From contig CAITMP010000083.1 of assembly GCA_903893525.1 (NCBI GenBank), positions 1-35,327 on the forward strand: 35,327 nucleotides of DNA, given 5' to 3'. The stretch comes from an uncultured Acidobacteriia bacterium (GTDB taxonomy: Bacteria; Acidobacteriota; Terriglobia; Bryobacterales; Bryobacteraceae). A model generated the notes under the pieces. That model was given only the letters and a program-made list of their open reading frames with translations, was not told the DNA's origin and did no database searches. The translations under genes and the position numbers were made by a program. This document shows, one piece after another, positions 10,571 through 21,000 of this stretch (position 1 is the stretch's first letter; every line of letters begins with the position of its first letter).

Positions 10571-13087
10571 GTGCGCATCAAACTTGCCGTTCTCGCCGCC
10601 GTCTCGCTCGCTGGTTTCGCCGCCGTAACCACCATTTTCCCCGTGCTGAAGTCCGACGTACACATCGGCAAACAGCCCGCCGGATTCTATGTCCTTCCGA
10701 CCAACCAGCTCCTCCAGCCTTGGGGGGAACAGTCCGTCATCAAAGGCCGGCCGGTGGACGCGGCACTGAGCCCGGACCGCACACTTCTTGCCGTCTTGAA
10801 CACACGCGGCATCGACATTTTCAACGCCTCGACCGGCACTCCCACCGGAACCGCCACCAGCAAGTCCACCTCGTACACGGGTGTGGCGTTCCGTCCGGGC
10901 ACTCCCGAACTGTGGAGCACCGAGACTTCGCGGAGCGGCAACGACTTTCTGCTGGTGACCCAAGTTTCGCCCGTTGGCGTACCGGGCAAGAGCGAAGAGA
11001 TTGGACTCGGCAAGCACGCCGTCCCAACGGGTATCGCTTTCTCCGCTGACGGCAAATTCGCGTGGGTGGCCATGAGCCGTTCCAATACGGTGGCGATCTT
11101 TGAGGCGGAGTCGCGGAAACTGGTTCGTGAGATCGAAGTCGGGGTGATGCCCTTCGGCGTCGTGTATTCAGAAAAGAAGCACCGCGTGTTCGTGAGTAAC
11201 AGGGGCGGACGCCGCCCGAGGGGTTCCGAAACGACGGCCCCGTCGAGCGGTACCGAGGTTCTGACCGACCCCAAGACCGGCTCCTCAGTCTCCGGCACCC
11301 TCAGCGTGATCGATACCGCGACGTTTGATGCCAAGGAGATCCCGGTTGGGTTGGCTCCGTCGCAACTCGCTTTGAGCCCCGATGAATCCCAGCTCTTGGT
11401 GGCGAACGGTCACTCGGACAGCATTTCCATCATCGCGACCGACACGCTGAAGACCACCGAGGTGAAGATTCCCGCCTATCCCGCCGGAGTGATCGGCAGC
11501 CAGCCTATCGCGGTAGCTTTCTCTCGCGACGCCAAGTCGATTTTCGTTGCATGCGCGGGAACGAACGCGATCAGTGTCGTCACCCAGACGGCGGGCAAGT
11601 GGTCGGTGGCAGGTTCCATTCCGACCGGCTGGTTCCCGTCCTCGGTCACGCCGATGGAGGATGGCTCCCTGCGCGTCGTCAATCTGAAGGGGGTCGGCAA
11701 CACGGCCAACGGACGAGGTGCCTTCGTTTCCACTGCCTACCAGGGGTCGCTGGAACAGATTCCAGCGTTGGACAGCGGACGCCTTGCAGCAGCCACCCGC
11801 GAGGTGGTCGCCGCGAACTCCCCGAAATATGAACCTGCGGGCGGAGTGGCCAACCTGCAATCGCTGGGCATCCAGCAGGTGGTCCTGATCGTGAAGGAAA
11901 ACCGCACCTACGACCAAGTCTTTGGCGATCTCAAGCAGGCGAATGGGGATCCCTCTCTCACCATGTTCGGTCGCGATGTCACCCCGAACCACCACGCCCT
12001 TGCCGAGCGCTATGTGATTCTCGACAACTTCCACACCGGCGGCGCGATCAGCTTCGACGGTCACCCGTGGCTGATGCAATCGTTCGTCAGTGACTATACG
12101 GAACGCGCCTTCGCGGCGTCCCCCCGCGGTTACGCCTGGAACATGGCCGATTCCCTCACCGTTGCCCCGACAGGCTTCTTCTGGCAGGGCCCGAAGACCC
12201 CCAGCCTCCGCATCTACGGCGAATTCTGCCTCCCCGCAAAGTGGGATCCGAAGACGCAATCCGCCATCGACATCAATGAATCCGAGGGCGGCATGAAGTG
12301 GGGCGATTACTGGAAGATGTACAAGGCAGGTACCTTGAAGGATTTTGTGGCCTCCAAGAGTGGTGTTCCTGCGCTCCAGAAGTACATTGACCCCCGTTCG
12401 CCGGACAACGACACCAACATCACCGACCAAATCCGCGCTGACGAGTTCCTGCGGGAACTGGGCGAATTCGAGAAGAAGGGCGAAATGCAGCAGCTCACCG
12501 TGCTGACCCTGACCTCGGACCACACCAACGGCACCTCACCGGGATCGCCGACGCCGAAGGCCATGGTTGCGGACGACGATTTGGCCTTGGGGCGGATTGT
12601 GGAGGGCCTTTCCAAATCCAAGTTCTGGGCATCCACGCTGATCCTGGTTGTGGAGGATGATGCGCAGAACGGCCTCGACCACGTGGACGGGCACCGTACC
12701 GTTGCTCTCGCCATCGGTCCGCACGTCCGCAAAGCGGCGGTGGATTCGAACTTCTACGATCACTCCAGCATGATCCGGACCATCCAGGATGTCTTCCGTA
12801 TCCCGCCGCAGACCCGCTTCGTGGCGGCCGCCCGCGCGATGAATTCGGTATTCACCCCGACGGCCGATACGGCACCCTACAAGGCGATCCCGAACAATAT
12901 TCCGCTCGACCAGATGAATCCGGCCGTCCGGGGCTTGAACGGGCGCGAGAAGTGGGCGGCGGAGCAGTCGCTGGCGATGAACTGGAAGGATCCGGATGAT
13001 ATTCCGTCGGATGTCTTGAACAAGATCCTGTGGTGGAGCACGAAGGGCTACGACAAGGAATATCCGGTTATTGCAGCGCACCGGTAG
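10571..13087 (+). CDS. YVTN/YncE-type beta-propeller fused to phosphoesterase (alkaline phosphatase-like)
   Basis: GTG start. Propeller repeats (LSPDESQLLVANGHSDSISII), then IVKENRTYDQVFGDLK and VVEDDAQNGLDHVDGHRTVALAIGPHVRK typical of the phosphoesterase family. Confidence 0.87.
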   Translation: MRIKLAVLAAVSLAGFAAVTTIFPVLKSDVHIGKQPAGFYVLPTNQLLQPWGEQSVIKGRPVDAALSPDRTLLAVLNTRGIDIFNASTGTPTGTATSKSTSYTGVAFRPGTPELWSTETSRSGNDFLLVTQVSPVGVPGKSEEIGLGKHAVPTGIAFSADGKFAWVAMSRSNTVAIFEAESRKLVREIEVGVMPFGVVYSEKKHRVFVSNRGGRRPRGSETTAPSSGTEVLTDPKTGSSVSGTLSVIDTATFDAKEIPVGLAPSQLALSPDESQLLVANGHSDSISIIATDTLKTTEVKIPAYPAGVIGSQPIAVAFSRDAKSIFVACAGTNAISVVTQTAGKWSVAGSIPTGWFPSSVTPMEDGSLRVVNLKGVGNTANGRGAFVSTAYQGSLEQIPALDSGRLAAATREVVAANSPKYEPAGGVANLQSLGIQQVVLIVKENRTYDQVFGDLKQANGDPSLTMFGRDVTPNHHALAERYVILDNFHTGGAISFDGHPWLMQSFVSDYTERAFAASPRGYAWNMADSLTVAPTGFFWQGPKTPSLRIYGEFCLPAKWDPKTQSAIDINESEGGMKWGDYWKMYKAGTLKDFVASKSGVPALQKYIDPRSPDNDTNITDQIRADEFLRELGEFEKKGEMQQLTVLTLTSDHTNGTSPGSPTPKAMVADDDLALGRIVEGLSKSKFWASTLILVVEDDAQNGLDHVDGHRTVALAIGPHVRKAAVDSNFYDHSSMIRTIQDVFRIPPQTRFVAAARAMNSVFTPTADTAPYKAIPNNIPLDQMNPAVRGLNGREKWAAEQSLAMNWKDPDDIPSDVLNKILWWSTKGYDKEYPVIAAHR

Positions 13088-13124
13088 GTCCTGGGGGCGG
13101 GCGTAACGCCCCCCGGGACCTTAT
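13087..13124. terminator. Bidirectional hairpin terminator between convergent genes
   Basis: GGTCC-T-GGGGGCG / ggcgtaa / CGCCCCC-CG-GGACC stem-loop followed by ttatcctt, between the phosphoesterase stop (13087) and the MBL-Nudix stop (13129). Confidence 0.55.
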
Positions 13125-13128
13125 CCTT

Positions 13129-14490
13129 CTAGCTTTCCAACCAATTGCGAACACGACGATGATCGGCCAACCGGATGATACGGGCCAAGCCGTCGGCGAC
13201 CGACGTGAGGTCGAGTTTGATCAGGTCGTCCCAGTCGACAGTGGACAGTTCCAATGTGATGGGATTGCCACTATCGTCGCAAATGTCTTCGCCGCGGACC
13301 CGCAAGCCTAGCGGAATGTCGAGGCCAAAGAGGGTGGAACGTTCGCGATTTTTCGGAGCGACACTTTCGAGCGCGAAGTCGTCGCTCAGCTGAGTCAGCC
13401 AGGCATCGTCGATCATGATTTGGTGGACGCGATCAGCGCTACTGACCAGCACTTCTTCCCGCGCTTCCCGAAGGGCGGTGGCCCTCGGGCTTCCGTCGCA
13501 GACGTCCATGTGGCCGCCGCCCAAGGAGTCGAGCTTGCCCGGGTGCGACTTGCCAGGCGGCCGCTTGTAAAGGACCAGCTTGCGGTCGCTCCTCACCAAG
13601 GTCAAGACGGATGCATGCAGCAGCCCTGATGAATGAGCGTCGTTCTTGCTGGCCACTCCGCACACCCGATTCTCTTCGTCGATCAGGGCAATTGGGTTGC
13701 GAGGTGGCAAATCCTGCCAGTCGATTTCCCAGCCGGGGTTTGCCCAACCAAGACTGAGGCCACCCGCAACTGCGGGCAACATCGCAGCCAAGCTGCCGCA
13801 GCTCAAGACACGTTGGTCATCTGTGCCGTAATGGATCAGGGCGGTGAAGCGCGGCGGCGTTTGGAGCGACCGCAACATGTCGATGTTGTCCCAGAGACCA
13901 ACGTGGCCCGTTTTCGGTGCCAGGCGGGTAATTGAGTTCGTCTCAATCACAGCGAGGTCAAGAGACTCCAGCACCTCGGTGCTGCCCCAAGACTTTTTGT
14001 CGAACAGCGCTCCGAAGCGAAAGCCATCGACCGAGACGACAAATACAACACCGCCCGGAAAATGGTCCGCCGCGTCCAACACATCGACGACAAACTCCGT
14101 CCCATCGACAGTGAGGGACACGCGCGTGTCGGGTTCCACGGGCACCCACTCGAGTGACGCGCGTTCAAAACCCGGTAAACTCAGCCAGGTGCGCTCAGTT
14201 GCCACAAAGCGAATCCGCTCCTTCGTCGATCGCAGGTGTGCCAGTCTCAGGATCAGGTTCATCTCGTGCCTGTTGACGTGATCCGGGTGCGCGTGGCTCC
14301 CAAATAACACAGCCGGCACCGACAACCCTCTGGCAATGATTCCGTCGGCACAGCCCGCCCCGCAGTCAAACAGCAGGTGGGATTGGCGATATATGAACGA
14401 GACCGAGGTATTGCCCTTGGGTCGATCATGGTGTGGGCTGAGCGCAGGCCAAGCGTTGCCTGTGCCCCAGATGATACTTCGCGGTTTCAC
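13129..14490 (-). CDS. Metallo-beta-lactamase fold hydrolase fused to a C-terminal Nudix domain
   Basis: MBL motif GSHAHPDH, plus LFDKKS and LIHYG. Nudix-like box GGGHMDVCDGSPRATALREAREEVLV. Preferred start is GTG (complement of 14488-14490), preceded by AGGAG (complement of 14501-14505); the listed ORF extends to 14529. Confidence 0.8.
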   Translation of the reverse strand: MKPRSIIWGTGNAWPALSPHHDRPKGNTSVSFIYRQSHLLFDCGAGCADGIIARGLSVPAVLFGSHAHPDHVNRHEMNLILRLAHLRSTKERIRFVATERTWLSLPGFERASLEWVPVEPDTRVSLTVDGTEFVVDVLDAADHFPGGVVFVVSVDGFRFGALFDKKSWGSTEVLESLDLAVIETNSITRLAPKTGHVGLWDNIDMLRSLQTPPRFTALIHYGTDDQRVLSCGSLAAMLPAVAGGLSLGWANPGWEIDWQDLPPRNPIALIDEENRVCGVASKNDAHSSGLLHASVLTLVRSDRKLVLYKRPPGKSHPGKLDSLGGGHMDVCDGSPRATALREAREEVLVSSADRVHQIMIDDAWLTQLSDDFALESVAPKNRERSTLFGLDIPLGLRVRGEDICDDSGNPITLELSTVDWDDLIKLDLTSVADGLARIIRLADHRRVRNWLES

Positions 14491-14577
14491 TTTGGAAATT
14501 CTCCTGACCCAAGTTGGGCCTGGAGCCATAGTGACGCAGATTTGTGCTCCGAATCGAGTACGGACGTGCTTGGCCAG

Positions 14578-15633
14578 TCACGCCGAAAGCAAGGGCCAAC
14601 AGAGCTTGACCGACCTATGATCGAGTTCCAAGTCGTCTCGCTCGAAGGGGCGATGGGCTAACTTTTCGGCACCGAACACCGCCGTGAAGCAGTTCGGGCC
14701 AAAATACGACCCATCTGTGCGTGGCCCATCCAGCAGTTCGTCGATCAACCCCTCCATGCCGAGTCCCAGAGTAGCCGCTACAGTGCCGGCACCACCATGC
14801 CCCGCCAGCAATACGCGGAATGGTGTCACGCTCGCGTCGAACATCATGAGTCCGCAATCAGGATATCTCTGCCTGCCGGACGTGTCGGCAGCGATCTCGT
14901 TGTCGGTCCACCTGCGGAAAAAGAGTCCGTGTTTTTCGCGGGAGGCGATTCCCTCCTCCGATTGACCCTTGGTGGACGAATGGGAAAGAAAATCGTGGCG
15001 AGCGTGGCCCCATCGGAACTTGACCGGCATGCTCTTGTTGTGTCGTCCGCAAATTTCAGCGGCGAGTACGTTCGCGATCGGGTTAACTACAGGGGATCCG
15101 ATGACAACGACCATACCCACCCGTGGATTGTCTTCTATTCGACTGAGTTCTGCTTGCGCCTCTGTTTCGGGCATCGAGGACGGGAAGTTGTGGAAGTCGA
15201 GTTCGCACTCCAAATGAAATTTCTTGTATAAGAGTTTTGTCAAATGCGCCACTGCTTCGGAATCGCGTGCACCGACTGCTCTTTGCGGAACTATGGAAAC
15301 GGAAGGCAGGTTGGCATACCGGACCCCCATGACAATCGCAACTCTTTTTCCAGGCTCCCACCTCTCCCATGGCTGCGCGCCACAGGAAATGCGTATTTCC
15401 GGTTTGATTCGCTTCAGAGCGGTGCAAAGCGACTCCACACTCTTGACTCTTTCCTGGGTTCGATCAATGGCGAGACCATACGTGCGTCGAGCATCAAGAC
15501 GATCAAGAAACTCGGTCTGAGTCTCCATCGGATGACGGCGACGTTGAATTTCCTCGTCGAGATCGCGCACGAATTGCTTCTCATCCTTGCTAATCGCCCA
15601 CTCAAGAAACTTCTTGTCGATTTGCAGTGTCAT
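14578..15633 (-). CDS. Uncharacterised protein with Rossmann-like core (GSPVVNP and AGHGGAGT motifs)
   Basis: Long ORF in the same orientation as the MBL-Nudix gene. Contains RVGMVVVIGSPVVNPIANVLAAEI and FRVLLAGHGGAGTVAATLGLGMEGLIDELL. ATG at 15633 (MTLQIDKKFLEW) preferred over 15696, whose extra N-terminus runs through the presumed junction. Confidence 0.65.
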   Translation of the reverse strand: MTLQIDKKFLEWAISKDEKQFVRDLDEEIQRRRHPMETQTEFLDRLDARRTYGLAIDRTQERVKSVESLCTALKRIKPEIRISCGAQPWERWEPGKRVAIVMGVRYANLPSVSIVPQRAVGARDSEAVAHLTKLLYKKFHLECELDFHNFPSSMPETEAQAELSRIEDNPRVGMVVVIGSPVVNPIANVLAAEICGRHNKSMPVKFRWGHARHDFLSHSSTKGQSEEGIASREKHGLFFRRWTDNEIAADTSGRQRYPDCGLMMFDASVTPFRVLLAGHGGAGTVAATLGLGMEGLIDELLDGPRTDGSYFGPNCFTAVFGAEKLAHRPFERDDLELDHRSVKLCWPLLSA

Positions 15634-15674
15634 CGCAGCATCCAGTCTAAGGAAACCATACCTAAACCCCTCAG

Positions 15675-15785
15675 TCAAGCAATAGCTTCGGCACAAGAGC
15701 TGAAAGTCGCGTTGTCCGGTGCGACGAATCGCTCCATCACCATCGCCAGGATCTGGTCCCGGTATTCGGTGCGCAGCTTTTCCAT
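15675..15785 (-). pseudogene. Truncated 5' remnant of an MNT-type nucleotidyltransferase-like gene
   Basis: Minus-strand frame from 15785: MEKLRTEYRDQILAMVMERF|VAPDNATFSSCAEAIA*. The first ~20 residues resemble the N-terminus of small nucleotidyltransferases (LRxEYRxQILA...), but the expected GSxxRGE core is absent and the frame stops at 15675. Lies 13 bp after the fic stop. Confidence 0.45.
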
Positions 15786-15798
15786 GGTGAGCATATCC

Positions 15799-16956
15799 CT
15801 ATTGTGCCGCAAAAGACCCTGCGGCCAGCGCTGCAAATCCGATCGGTTCGGGCGACGGCAGCGCCGCGAAATACCGCGCGTGCCGCCGTTCCCCCGTCCG
15901 CGTCAATGCGCCTTTCTCCACCAAATCCGCCAGATCGCGCGTCGCGGTAGCCGGGGACGCCCCGGTAATCGTGGCGTAGTTCCCGGCGCTCAGGCCGCCC
16001 TCGAAGCCGTCCGGGCCCTCTCGCAAGAGCCGCAGCAACGCCTTCTCCTGGCGATCATTCAGCGCCCCGCGCAGGCGATCCAGCAAGTGTGACTTTCCCA
16101 CCAGGAAATCGGCCAACTGGATGGTCCGCTGCTGGGCCTCCAGCGTCACATCGGCAAACCACGCCAGCCACTGCGTGATCTCGGTGGTCTTGCTGGCCAG
16201 TTCCAGTTCGCGGTAGTATTCCTTGCGGCGCGCCAGGATCGTCGTCGAAAGCGCTGTCAATGTGGGATGCCGCAGGCCTTGCGCCAACGCCTTCTCCGCG
16301 ATCGCCCGTCCAATCCTACCGTTTCCGTCTTCGTACGGGTGGATTGACTCGAAGTAGAGATGCGCGATTCCGGCCCGTGTGAGTGCGGGCAGCGGCTCCG
16401 GCCCGTCCCAGGATGTCCGGTTGAACCAGTCGAGAAACCGGTCCGTTTCCGCAGGCAACGTCGCCGACGGGGGTGCCACGAAATGCACACGCTCCTTTCC
16501 GATAGCTCCCGAAATGATCTCCATCGGCTCCGAACCCGAGCGGTATTCGCCAACCGCGACGTCCGCACGACCCGGCAGCAGCTTGCGGTGCCAGGAATGC
16601 AGCGTTTCATGGGAAAGCGGCTCCAGGAAATTGGCGAACAGGTCCAGCATCAATTGCGCAATGCCGTCCTCTTTCGGCCCGACCCGCCGGTTGTCCGAAG
16701 CCAGTCCCAACTTCCGGCGCAGCGATGACTGGACGCTGGCCCGGTCCAGCAATTCGCCTTCAATTTCAGAGGTGGTGACCGCCTCGCCGCTGATGCACTC
16801 GACGTACAAGCTTTCGCGGTGCGCGCTGCCAAGATGGCCGACGGTTCCGATCAGAACACCGCCGGAGTTGTGGAACTTCCGCTCTTTCTCCGCGAGTCGC
16901 GAGGCGTCCCACCGGAAGTGCGGCCAGTCGGGTTGTTCCCAGTTCCAACGGTCCAT
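15799..16956 (-). CDS. Fic family protein with C-terminal winged-helix domain
   Basis: Fic motif HPYEDGNGRIGR, N-terminal inhibitory-type motif TSEIEGE, C-terminal wHTH-like segment (NYATITGASPATATRDLADLVEKGALTRTGERRHARYF). Confidence 0.93.
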   Translation of the reverse strand: MDRWNWEQPDWPHFRWDASRLAEKERKFHNSGGVLIGTVGHLGSAHRESLYVECISGEAVTTSEIEGELLDRASVQSSLRRKLGLASDNRRVGPKEDGIAQLMLDLFANFLEPLSHETLHSWHRKLLPGRADVAVGEYRSGSEPMEIISGAIGKERVHFVAPPSATLPAETDRFLDWFNRTSWDGPEPLPALTRAGIAHLYFESIHPYEDGNGRIGRAIAEKALAQGLRHPTLTALSTTILARRKEYYRELELASKTTEITQWLAWFADVTLEAQQRTIQLADFLVGKSHLLDRLRGALNDRQEKALLRLLREGPDGFEGGLSAGNYATITGASPATATRDLADLVEKGALTRTGERRHARYFAALPSPEPIGFAALAAGSFAAQ

Positions 16957-16984
16957 GAGCGATAGAATAGCATTCTATCGCTCA
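16956..16984. promoter_or_regulatory. Inverted repeat 1 (putative operator) abutting the fic start codon
   Basis: TGAGCGATAGAAT-AGC-ATTCTATCGCTCA: perfect 13-bp arms with a 3-nt spacer; core GAGCGATAG-N9-CTATCGCTC. Confidence 0.75.
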
Positions 16985-17000
16985 CAAAACAAGCTTTACG

Positions 17001-17029
17001 TGAGCGATAGAAGGCGCTCCTATCGCTCA
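17001..17029. promoter_or_regulatory. Inverted repeat 2 (putative operator) upstream of fic, overlapping the VOC stop codon
   Basis: TGAGCGATAG-aaggcgctc-CTATCGCTCA: 10-bp arms identical to IR1 with the same 9-nt spacing; centre-to-centre distance 45 bp. Confidence 0.75.
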
Positions 17030-17383
17030 TGCCGGATTTGGATACGGAAAGTAGAGCTCGTTGCCATCCGGGTCCGTGACCACCATGAGGCGGTAGCCCC
17101 ACTGCCCGTCCCTCACATCCACGCTCCTTTGTTCCAATTCCGCTCGCAGCAAATCCAGCACGTCGGCGTCCAGTGATATGAAAATCAGACCCTTGCCGAC
17201 TCGACCCGGCCACTGGGAGGAAAGAATCAGCGCGCATCCCTGGCGCTCCACCTGCGCCACCAGTGCCTTCCCGTCCTCTTCATGCCGCCACGGCTGTGTG
17301 AATCCGAGTTGGCCGACGTAGAAATCCACCGATGCGTCAAGATCGGAGACACACAGCACTGGCCGCGAAAACCATTCCGCCAT
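17027..17383 (-). CDS. VOC family (glyoxalase/bleomycin resistance-type) protein
   Basis: MAEWFSRPVLCVSDLDASVDFYVGQLGF ... YRLMVVTDPDGNELYFPYPNPA, the typical VOC fold pattern. Confidence 0.88.
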   Translation of the reverse strand: MAEWFSRPVLCVSDLDASVDFYVGQLGFTQPWRHEEDGKALVAQVERQGCALILSSQWPGRVGKGLIFISLDADVLDLLRAELEQRSVDVRDGQWGYRLMVVTDPDGNELYFPYPNPA

Positions 17384-17384
17384 G

Positions 17385-18002
17385 TTAGAGCGAGCCCAGG
17401 GTCGTCACCATGGGATGGTCGAACGTCCCCTTGCAGAAGCCCTTCTTGCCGTAGTAGAAAATGTAGAGCGAGAGACCGGCCAGAATCGCGTCATGTCCTT
17501 TCAGCCAAGGCACGAGCGGAACAATCACATGCGCAAGACCTTTCACCGCGTCCTTTACACCGTCCTGTAGCCAGTCATCCAGTTGCACGTTGAGCGCTTC
17601 CTGGAAGCCGGTATCCTTGCAAAGGATTTCTTGAACAGAGTCCAGAAGAGCCAAAAACCAATTACTTTCATTGAGTTGACCCCCAACGAAACCTTCCAGG
17701 CTGATACCGCGATCCGCCTTCGATTCGAAAATACCCAGGGGTACCGCCCAAGCTGGATCGTTCGCATCCAGAGCCTCGACCCTCGAAGGATCGTAGTGCC
17801 ACTCACGCTTCGCGAGGGTCTCCGACGTTGGCTGGGACACAATCACGGGCCTCGCAAACGGCATCTTGATCATGATGCCTGTCAACCGGGCCAACCTCTT
17901 CGCAGCCAACTCCTCGTCGACCCTCAAAGCCTCCCGCACCCCGCACCCGTACTCCCCGTCTGCCAAGTTGTCCAACTCCACCAACGACTGTTCCCAGTTC
18001 AT
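17385..18002 (-). CDS. Hypothetical protein
   Basis: 205-codon ORF fitting tightly between the VOC gene (1-bp gap) and the RND permease (2-bp gap), same strand; no family recognised. Confidence 0.6.
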   Translation of the reverse strand: MNWEQSLVELDNLADGEYGCGVREALRVDEELAAKRLARLTGIMIKMPFARPVIVSQPTSETLAKREWHYDPSRVEALDANDPAWAVPLGIFESKADRGISLEGFVGGQLNESNWFLALLDSVQEILCKDTGFQEALNVQLDDWLQDGVKDAVKGLAHVIVPLVPWLKGHDAILAGLSLYIFYYGKKGFCKGTFDHPMVTTLGSL

Positions 18003-18004
18003 CG

Positions 18005-21000
18005 CTACTCCCTTGCCAGGTAGTAATGTACCGCCGGCGTCACGATCAGCGACAGGACCATCGACGCGGCGATGCCCCCGATCACCGCTATCGCCAGCGG
18101 CTGCAACATCTGCGAACCGGCACCGATCGCCAATGACAGCGGAATCATGCCTGCGACTGTCGCCATCGCGGTCATCAGAATCGGCCGCAAGCGACGTCGC
18201 CCGGCTTCCAACATCGCGTCGCGGGCCGAATAACCTTCAGCCCGGAAGCGCTGGTCGGCATCCAACAGCAGAATCCCGTTCTTCGCAACAATGCCGATTA
18301 CCATGATCAGCCCCATGAAAGACGAAATATTGAACGTTGTCTTCGTAACCAAGAGAGCCAGGAACACTCCCGAAGTGGAAAGCAGCGCCGATGCCAGAAT
18401 CGCCGACGGAGCGCCGAACGTCCCAAACTCGAACAGCAGAACCACGAAAACCAGCACCACAGCCAGGAACAAAACAAATCCAAGGTCCTTGAAGGACTTC
18501 TGCTGCTCCTGGTAGGTGCCGCCGTACACCACGCGGATCTCGGGCGGCAGGTTCATTTCGGCCACTGCGGCCTTGACCAAGTCCATGCCCTTGCCCAAGC
18601 TGATACCCTCGAAACGCCCCGTGACGCCGACCACGCGCTGCAAATTCTCGCGCCGGACCTCCGTCTGTCCGGCCTCGGTTTCGAACTTCGCAAGCGACCC
18701 CAGCGTGGCGTTCTTTCCCGTGGAACTCACGATCATCGTATTTTTCACCTGCTCCAGCGTGGCGCGGGTATAGTTCGGGAATCGGACGCGGATTGTATAG
18801 GAGCGGTCATTCACCACCACGGGTGTGGTGGCGGGCTCGCCTTGGAGAATCGCACTGGCGTCCAGTTCGATTTCCTGCGGCGTGAAACCGGCCCGCGCTG
18901 CCATCACAGGGTCTACGCGCATCACGATGGCGGAACCGCTGACAGTGTTCTCGATCCCGTTCTTCACGTCCTTGACCTGTTCGATCTTCTTGATCCGGTC
19001 ACCCACCTTCGGGGCCCACTTCTTCAAGACGGCTGGATCCTGGCAGAACATCTTGATTTCAATCGGCTCGGGCGAATTGCTCAAATCGCCGATCATGTCC
19101 TGCAAAACCTGGATGAACTCGATGTCGAGTTGGGGGTAGGCACCGTTGATCTGCTTCCGGAGATCGGAAATCACTTCGTCGATTCCCCGCTCGCGGTCCG
19201 CCTTCAGCCGGACAAGGAAATCGCCAGTATTCGCCTCGGTAACGGCAGCTAAGCCCAACTGCAAGCCAGTGCGGCGGGAAGTACCCTCCACCTCCGGCAC
19301 CTTTGCCAGGATCTTCTCCACGCCCAGGAGTACTTCGTTGGTGTCGTGCAGCGAGGAACCGGCAGGCATCAGGTAATCCAACACGAAGCCACCCTCGTCC
19401 ATCTCGGGGAGTAGATCGGAACCGAGCGATTGGTAGCAGAGGAATGAAACGCCAACCAGCGCAGCGCAACCCAACAGCAACATCAGAGGTTGACGCAGGG
19501 ACAATCCCAACGCCGCCGTATAGGCGTTCGTCAATTTGCCCATGAAACCGGTTGTTGAGACATGACCGTGCGCGTCGGCAGTGGTGGAAGGTTCCAGCTT
19601 GCCGGAACGTTGCCGACGCAGCAGGTAGTGGCTCAACGCCGGGGTCCAAGTCAGCGCCAAGGCCAGGGAAGTCAAAAGCGAGGTTCCAACCGTCAGCGCC
19701 AGCGCCCGAAAGAAGGTACCCGTCACCCCGGTAATGGAGATCAGCGGCAGGAAAACGACGATCGGCGTAATGGTGGAGCCCAGCAGCGGCACCCGGATTT
19801 CCTTGAGCGCGCTGCGGATGGCGTCGCCGCGTGATTGCCCCGAGTCCCGGTGCATGACGATGTTTTCGACCACGACAATCGCGTCGTCGATGACCAACCC
19901 GACCGCAGCTGCCAGTCCGCCCAGCGTCATCAGGTCGAAGCTCTCTCCCAGCATGCGCAGCACGATCAGGGTAATGCCGATAGTGGCTGGAATCACGAGG
20001 CCAGCGACGATGGAACTGCCCCAGTCGCGCAGGAAAAGAACCAGGATGATGGCCGCAAAAACCAAGCCAATCAGGATGGCGTCACGCACGCTGGCGATGG
20101 AGTCGCGCACCAGTTGGGATTGGTCATAGAAGGCCTGAAGCTTCACACCCGGAGGCAGGGTGGTCCGGATCTGATCCAATTCCTTTGCCACCAAATCCGC
20201 CACTGCGACCGTATTGCCCGTGGGCTGCCGGAAGACGTTCAACAGCACTGCCGGTTTCCCGTTGGCCGTCACAATCGTATATACGGGCGCGACCGACGGG
20301 CCTACACTACCCAAATCGGCGATGCGGATGGGCACGCCTGCGGGTGACGTTTTCACCACCACGTTGGCGATTTCGTCCGGTGTCCGGGTTTGGCCAGTGA
20401 CCAGCGCCAGGGACAGCTCGTGGTTGTTCTCGAGCAACCCGGGCGAATCAATCATGTTGCTGCGCGCGATGGCGTCCAGAATTCCCGGCACGGTCACCTG
20501 GGCCTGCAACATCTTTGCCGGATCCGGTTGCACCTGGAATTCGGGAACCTGCCCGCCTTGCAGTACCACCATCGACACGCCGGTGACCCTGTTCAGCCTC
20601 GGCTTGATCGAATAGTTGGCCAATTCCCAAAGCTTCGATTGCGGCATGCTGTCCGAGGTCAGGCTGTAGCCCAGAATCGGAAAGGCCGCAAATGTCAGGC
20701 GGTTGGCCGTCAGCTTGGCGGTCGGCGGGAGCGTCGTCTGCACGCGCGCCAAGGCCGCGTTCACGGACTGCAGCGTCTGGAACATGTCCACATTCCAGTT
20801 GAAGAAGAGGCTGACTTCGGCCGAGCCGCGGCTGGTATTGGAACGCACTGTTTCGAGTCCAGGAACGCTGTTCATGGCCTCTTCGATATTCCGCGTGACC
20901 GTAACATGCATCTGGTCGATGGGAGCCACGCCGTTGTCGACGCCTACCACGACGCGCGGGAAGTCGGTCGACGGGAATACCGCAACAGGAATCGAAAGCG

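Follow-up and report, generated by a model that had tools for sequence, protein, structure and literature searches.

A stretch of 35,327 nt from a Bryobacteraceae contig, here called the window, contains two adjacent minus-strand open reading frames (ORFs), P0001 and P0002, that we tentatively read as an accessory cassette, probably mobile and of narrow distribution, in which P0001 is a bifunctional small-molecule hydrolase and P0002 its orphan partner. The original prediction had placed two neighbouring minus-strand genes here, and both ORFs are present at the right coordinates (Table 1). It had also described a metallo-beta-lactamase (MBL) domain with the motif HAHPDH and a Nudix domain in one polypeptide, next to a protein that fits no nameable family. 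Both domains are recovered in P0001, the first by PF12706 and the second by PF00293, and none of the searched libraries returned a family for P0002.

Domains of P0001 and the orphan P0002

The ORF of P0001 covers positions 13129–14529 and gives 466 amino acids if started at the ATG at 14529, with the GTG at 14490, which by eye is preceded by an AGGAG, as the likelier start, giving a product of 453 amino acids. The ORF of P0002 (14578–15696) has 372 codons from a TTG and 351 from the likely start, the ATG at 15633. Judged by the codon usage of the neighbouring genes each frame is the best of six, the one of P0002 being weaker and less neighbour-like. The two genes are spaced by 48–87 bp on the same strand with no convincing terminator in the gap, and P0002, the upstream gene, is probably co-transcribed with P0001.

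The set of MBL ligands in P0001 is complete, with H79, H81, D83 and H84 in the HxHxDH motif and the predicted downstream ligands H156 (AADHF), D177 (ALFDK) and H233 (ALIHYG), and in the alignment the GH-S motif of relatives falls on H209 of TGHV. A profile of six sequences, P0001 and its relatives, was searched against the PDB sequence set and had chains of RNase Z and ELAC as best matches, with PhnP and Apyc1 also significant. Since other MBL proteins sit in the profile, it places P0001 in a broad group and not in an exact subfamily. RNase Z and ELAC, the nearest by profile, share with P0001 the MBL fold, HxHxDH, the aligned GH motif and phosphodiester chemistry, but P0001 is far under the RNase Z cut-offs (NCBIfam/TIGR model: E 0.0025 and 16.9 bits against a cut-off of 293 bits) and carries a fused Nudix domain. 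The class II phosphodiesterases PhnP and Apyc1/YhfI fall in the same MBL group by profile, and a di-metal site is predicted in P0001, but they have no Nudix domain and full-length similarity to P0001 is not established; PhnP in addition works in C-P lyase operons, which are absent from the genus of the window. Apyc1 and YhfI have a di-zinc HxHxDH site and cleave cyclic nucleotides (PMC9117128). By sequence the MBL domain of P0001 can be assigned only to the broader group around Apyc1, an anti-Pycsar phosphodiesterase defined by cleavage of cCMP/cUMP. An AlphaFold2 model of the domain with five relatives had a predicted local distance difference test (pLDDT) score of 36.2 and was unusable.

The Nudix domain matches PF00293 with 28.7 bits (E 1.5e-6), above the curated cut-off of 21.1. 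It is nearest to YfcD (NCBIfam E 2e-4; best PDB match YfcD, E 0.005), an enzyme whose substrate is not settled, and also resembles the IDI and CoA pyrophosphatase models. The segment ahead of the Nudix box (ALIDEENRVCGVA ... GLLH) and the GH region of the box align with the YfcD/IDI-type hydrolases. The box itself, GGHMDVCDGSPRATALREAREEV, keeps REAREE (residues 354–359) intact but differs from these enzymes and from the consensus GX5EX7REUXEEXGU by an insertion of one residue, a D in place of the first acidic E, and an L in place of the final G.

An MBL-Nudix fusion is not new in kind and is common in the phylum. A search for BLACT_WH proteins in 297 Acidobacteriota genomes gave long ORFs of 480–543 amino acids, and all ten of these that were scanned run from NUDIX through Lactamase_B to BLACT_WH (NUDIX below the cut-off in L108). 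These proteins (e.g. L104, L106, L115 and L119) have MBL and Nudix in one chain, as P0001, but with the Nudix domain first, an MBL domain of the PF00753 type and a winged helix, whereas P0001 has MBL first and Nudix last, no BLACT_WH match and no significant full-length similarity to them. Because of the reverse order, the different MBL type and the lack of a winged helix, P0001 would most simply be a separate fusion event. The pair had been proposed to be uncharacterised, which still holds. Literature searches on MBL-Nudix fusions found no direct description of them. The idea of an unusual fusion type is weakened by the common Nudix-MBL-BLACT_WH proteins.

P0002 has no match, whole or in pieces, in Pfam, NCBIfam, PADLOC, PHROGs or the PDB sequences, and the Rossmann-like character with nucleotide-binding-like loops that had been suggested for it thus has no profile match in support. 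With tblastn no relatives were found in plasmids to E 10 or in phages to E 0.1, nor in viral contigs with exact peptides or with degenerate patterns, made from invented similar-residue variants and used only for searching. The AlphaFold2 model of P0002 alone (pLDDT 31.6) was unusable. PDB matches to AriA and cysteine synthase, at E 0.07 or worse, were taken as chance, as were weak matches in Acidobacteriota (L026, L030, L038, L041 and others), several of which have in-frame stops or lie inside cytochrome or aminotransferase genes.

Table 1. Features of the P0001-P0002 region, with positions in the window
Feature	Position	Strand	Basis
P0001, MBL-Nudix fusion	13129..14490	minus	PF12706 and PF00293, upstream AGGAG, coding frame
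MBL domain, RNase Z / PhnP / class II phosphodiesterase type	13693..14490	minus	PF12706; profile against PDB sequences
S-H-A-H-P-D-H metal-binding motif	14278..14298	minus	HAHPDH, residues 79–84 of P0001
Nudix domain, YfcD / IDI-like	13132..13698	minus	PF00293; YfcD NCBIfam; PDB YfcD
Nudix box	13450..13521	minus	alignment with relatives
P0002, orphan protein	14578..15633	minus	351 amino acids from ATG; GC3 0.61; no family or PDB match
Near-identical block shared with G415	11879..18055	none	99.87% identity, 8 differences; flanks 7–9% different
GC-rich hairpin between convergent phosphoesterase and P0001 genes	13086..13121	none	fold energy
YncE-like/phosphoesterase gene	10571–13087	convergent to P0001	left neighbour

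Distribution and base composition of the region

Protein searches in 396 phylum-wide, 237 family and 399 class genomes, sets that overlap and all belong to one phylum, found the pair only in the genome of the window and in a congener, G415; such single-sequence searches miss distant relatives. A scan with 8-residue peptides of 84,980 species genomes found the G415 contig only, which excludes close relatives only. In G415 both ORFs are intact, and each product differs at a single amino acid (identities of 99.8% and 99.7%). The contigs of this genome are collinear with the window, and in a block of 6,177 bp only 8 sites differ (0.13%), with a difference of 8.8% in the left flank and 6.7% in the right. 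The block holds the pair, a Fic gene, a glyoxalase gene and a gene for an orphan of 205 amino acids. It begins within the phosphoesterase gene and ends within an RND permease gene, as would be expected if homologous recombination in the conserved flanks had replaced it, and looks like either a recent replacement between species or an artefact of co-assembly; the direction of such a transfer is not shown by these results, and like its cause would be inferred. In a close module-free congener (G413) a DksA-type gene comes after the phosphoesterase orthologue (94% protein identity in the part that was searched), and a sugar ABC transporter comes after the RND-glyoxalase orthologues; P0001, P0002, the Fic gene and the 205-amino-acid gene are missing there.

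GC content was compared within the window only. The sliding-window minimum is 51.2% at 15201–15700 against a mean of 60.3% (standard deviation 2.4%). The GC content at third codon positions (GC3) is the lowest of 24 genes in P0002, at 0.61, and ordinary in P0001, at 0.71, so the deviation is real but is one of P0002 and not of both genes. The low GC reported earlier is therefore confirmed as a dip, but one confined to P0002. The idea of acquired DNA has stood up, subject to the caveat of co-assembly, with the narrow distribution, the module-free flanks in G413, the 99.9%-identical block and the low GC of P0002 all pointing to it, and the region of the pair is probably accessory, exchanged and acquired DNA.

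Proposed role of the pair and its alternatives

According to the reading that we favour, the MBL domain of P0001 would open a phosphodiester, probably a cyclic one, the YfcD/IDI-like Nudix domain would cleave a pyrophosphate bond, either in the same molecule or in the metabolite that comes next, and P0002 would make this compound, bind it or sense it. The presence of two hydrolases of phosphate bonds in a single chain suggests a sequential attack on a nucleotide-derived molecule, and the complete MBL ligands, the intact REAREE and the phosphodiester-cleaving activity of the profile-nearest enzymes (RNase Z, ELAC, PhnP and Apyc1) are consistent with it. The genes, their domains and metal ligands, the lack of the pair in relatives and the identity of the block are observed, and from them we infer the substrate class, a nucleotide-derived small molecule, as well as the coupling of the two genes and the role of P0002. 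A more far-reaching reading, to which we give little credence, would be a new, horizontally moving two-gene system in which the P0002 family makes or senses a nucleotide-derived signal and a dedicated MBL-Nudix hydrolase degrades it. A functional pair would represent a separately evolved MBL-Nudix bifunctional hydrolase linked to an undescribed protein family; otherwise it would be one more orphan accessory gene pair. The near-identical block in two Acidobacteriota species offers a well-delimited example, open to testing, of genes replaced recently in a phylum that has been little studied.

Several observations weigh against this reading. On the whole of P0001 the match to PF12706 (Lactamase_B_2) has 24.2 bits (E 2.9e-5), below the curated cut-off of 27 bits, which is still not reached with the isolated domain (26.0 bits, E 8e-6), and the MBL profile partly reflects its other MBL members. 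The off-consensus box could mean that the Nudix domain is inactive. P0001 and P0002 may not share an origin, because P0001 has a normal GC content and P0002 is AT-rich. The only other copy of the pair, that of G415, is near-identical and hence not an independent case of co-conservation. Finally, both genomes are fragmented metagenome-assembled genomes, that of the window with 975 contigs, and a G415 contig ends inside the identical block, so that co-assembly could mimic a transfer of the block.

A metabolic or self-protective role, also possible but on the unlikely side, would have P0001 recycle or detoxify a nucleotide-linked compound of the CoA, sugar or prenyl-diphosphate type, with P0002 as a pathway enzyme. 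The likeness of the Nudix domain to the YfcD, IDI and CoA pyrophosphatase models, the commonness of Nudix-MBL fusions as ordinary chromosomal genes in the phylum and the nearby RND efflux operon are in line with such a role, but the domain order and MBL subtype of P0001 are unlike those of the common fusions, and the narrow and patchy presence speaks against core metabolism.

It is unlikely that the two are unrelated neighbours or a decaying insertion, having arrived independently or being in decay, and that they have no joint action. Their differing GC3, the off-consensus Nudix box and an ORF next to the Fic gene that looks cut off agree with this explanation, whereas the intact ORFs in both genomes and the close spacing on the same strand do not.

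A nucleotide-signal defence, in which P0002 would make or sense a signal in phage infection and P0001 would degrade or tune it, is rather doubtful. By profile the MBL domain is near the Apyc1-type cyclic nucleotide phosphodiesterases (PMC9117128), Nudix domains serve as effectors in conflict systems (PMC7159879), and the pair has a narrow distribution. The MBL-trypsin modules known from Hachiman, Avs and Lamassu (PMC12799240) are likewise accessory, made of two genes and equipped with an MBL hydrolase, but no Nudix domain is mentioned for them, and P0002 matches no protease family. The adjoining Fic gene matches PADLOC SoFic (E 5e-42), but neither P0001 nor P0002 is tied to defence by PADLOC (to E 0.1), Pfam or NCBIfam, and the defence or nucleotide-signal module of the original prediction is not supported. 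P0002 has no cyclase-like profile, and the annotated part of the window contains no other defence gene, the neighbours being efflux, polysaccharide and general enzyme genes.

A clean-up of ribose 1,2-cyclic phosphate is very improbable: Nudix followed by PhnP-like chemistry would fit in sequence (PhnP and KptA products), the Nudix domain splitting ADP-ribose 1'',2''-cyclic phosphate and a PhnP-like MBL domain opening the cyclic product, and PhnP is among the MBL profile matches, but this role lost its main support because KptA (PF01885) and the C-P lyase protein PhnJ (PF06007), which mark the known sources of substrates of this kind, are found in 0 of 19 genus genomes, with an E. coli control positive for both.

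Neighbouring genes and related loci

The hairpin on the left of P0001 folds with -27.9 kcal/mol (z -2.1; 5 of 200 shuffles equally good) and is a possible bidirectional terminator. To the right of the pair follow the DUF4172-Fic gene, the glyoxalase gene, the 205-amino-acid orphan and the RND efflux operon. Flanking genes of a housekeeping type had been expected, and this was not borne out on the right, where the immediate neighbour encodes a Fic protein. The C-terminus of this protein looks like a helix-turn-helix, and two near-identical palindromes, TGAGCGATAGAATAGCATTCTATCGCTCA and TGAGCGATAGAAGGCGCTCCTATCGCTCA, are located just upstream of its gene at 16954–17031. They are a possible operator for autoregulation of the Fic gene; their exact 12-mer was not found at the Fic loci of three congeners. 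Directly after the Fic gene, on the minus strand at 15680–15798, is an ORF of 39 amino acids (MLTMEKLRTEYRDQILAMVMERF...) that resembles a cut-off gene start and by eye recalls nucleotidyltransferase antitoxins, with no match in a profile search. The 205-amino-acid gene (17385–18002, minus strand) separates the glyoxalase gene from the RND permease gene, which are directly adjacent in G413, and may constitute a second accessory insertion.

Other domain combinations were seen in the genomes searched. An IspA-type membrane domain is fused to a Nudix domain in L005:1204–2352 and L006:898–2013, and by alignment also in L007 and L009. The polypeptide of L037:1–1752 (G681), in which Lactamase_B_2 is joined to the receiver domain of a response regulator and to a domain that binds cyclic nucleotides, is possibly a phosphodiesterase regulated by cyclic nucleoside monophosphates. 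L076:5527–10356 (G510) contains an ORF of 848 amino acids with a PF00753 MBL match and a weak Peptidase_C25 match, near an unmatched ORF of 283 amino acids and a PF12706 MBL gene that is 30% identical to part of P0001, and could be a conflict-type locus.
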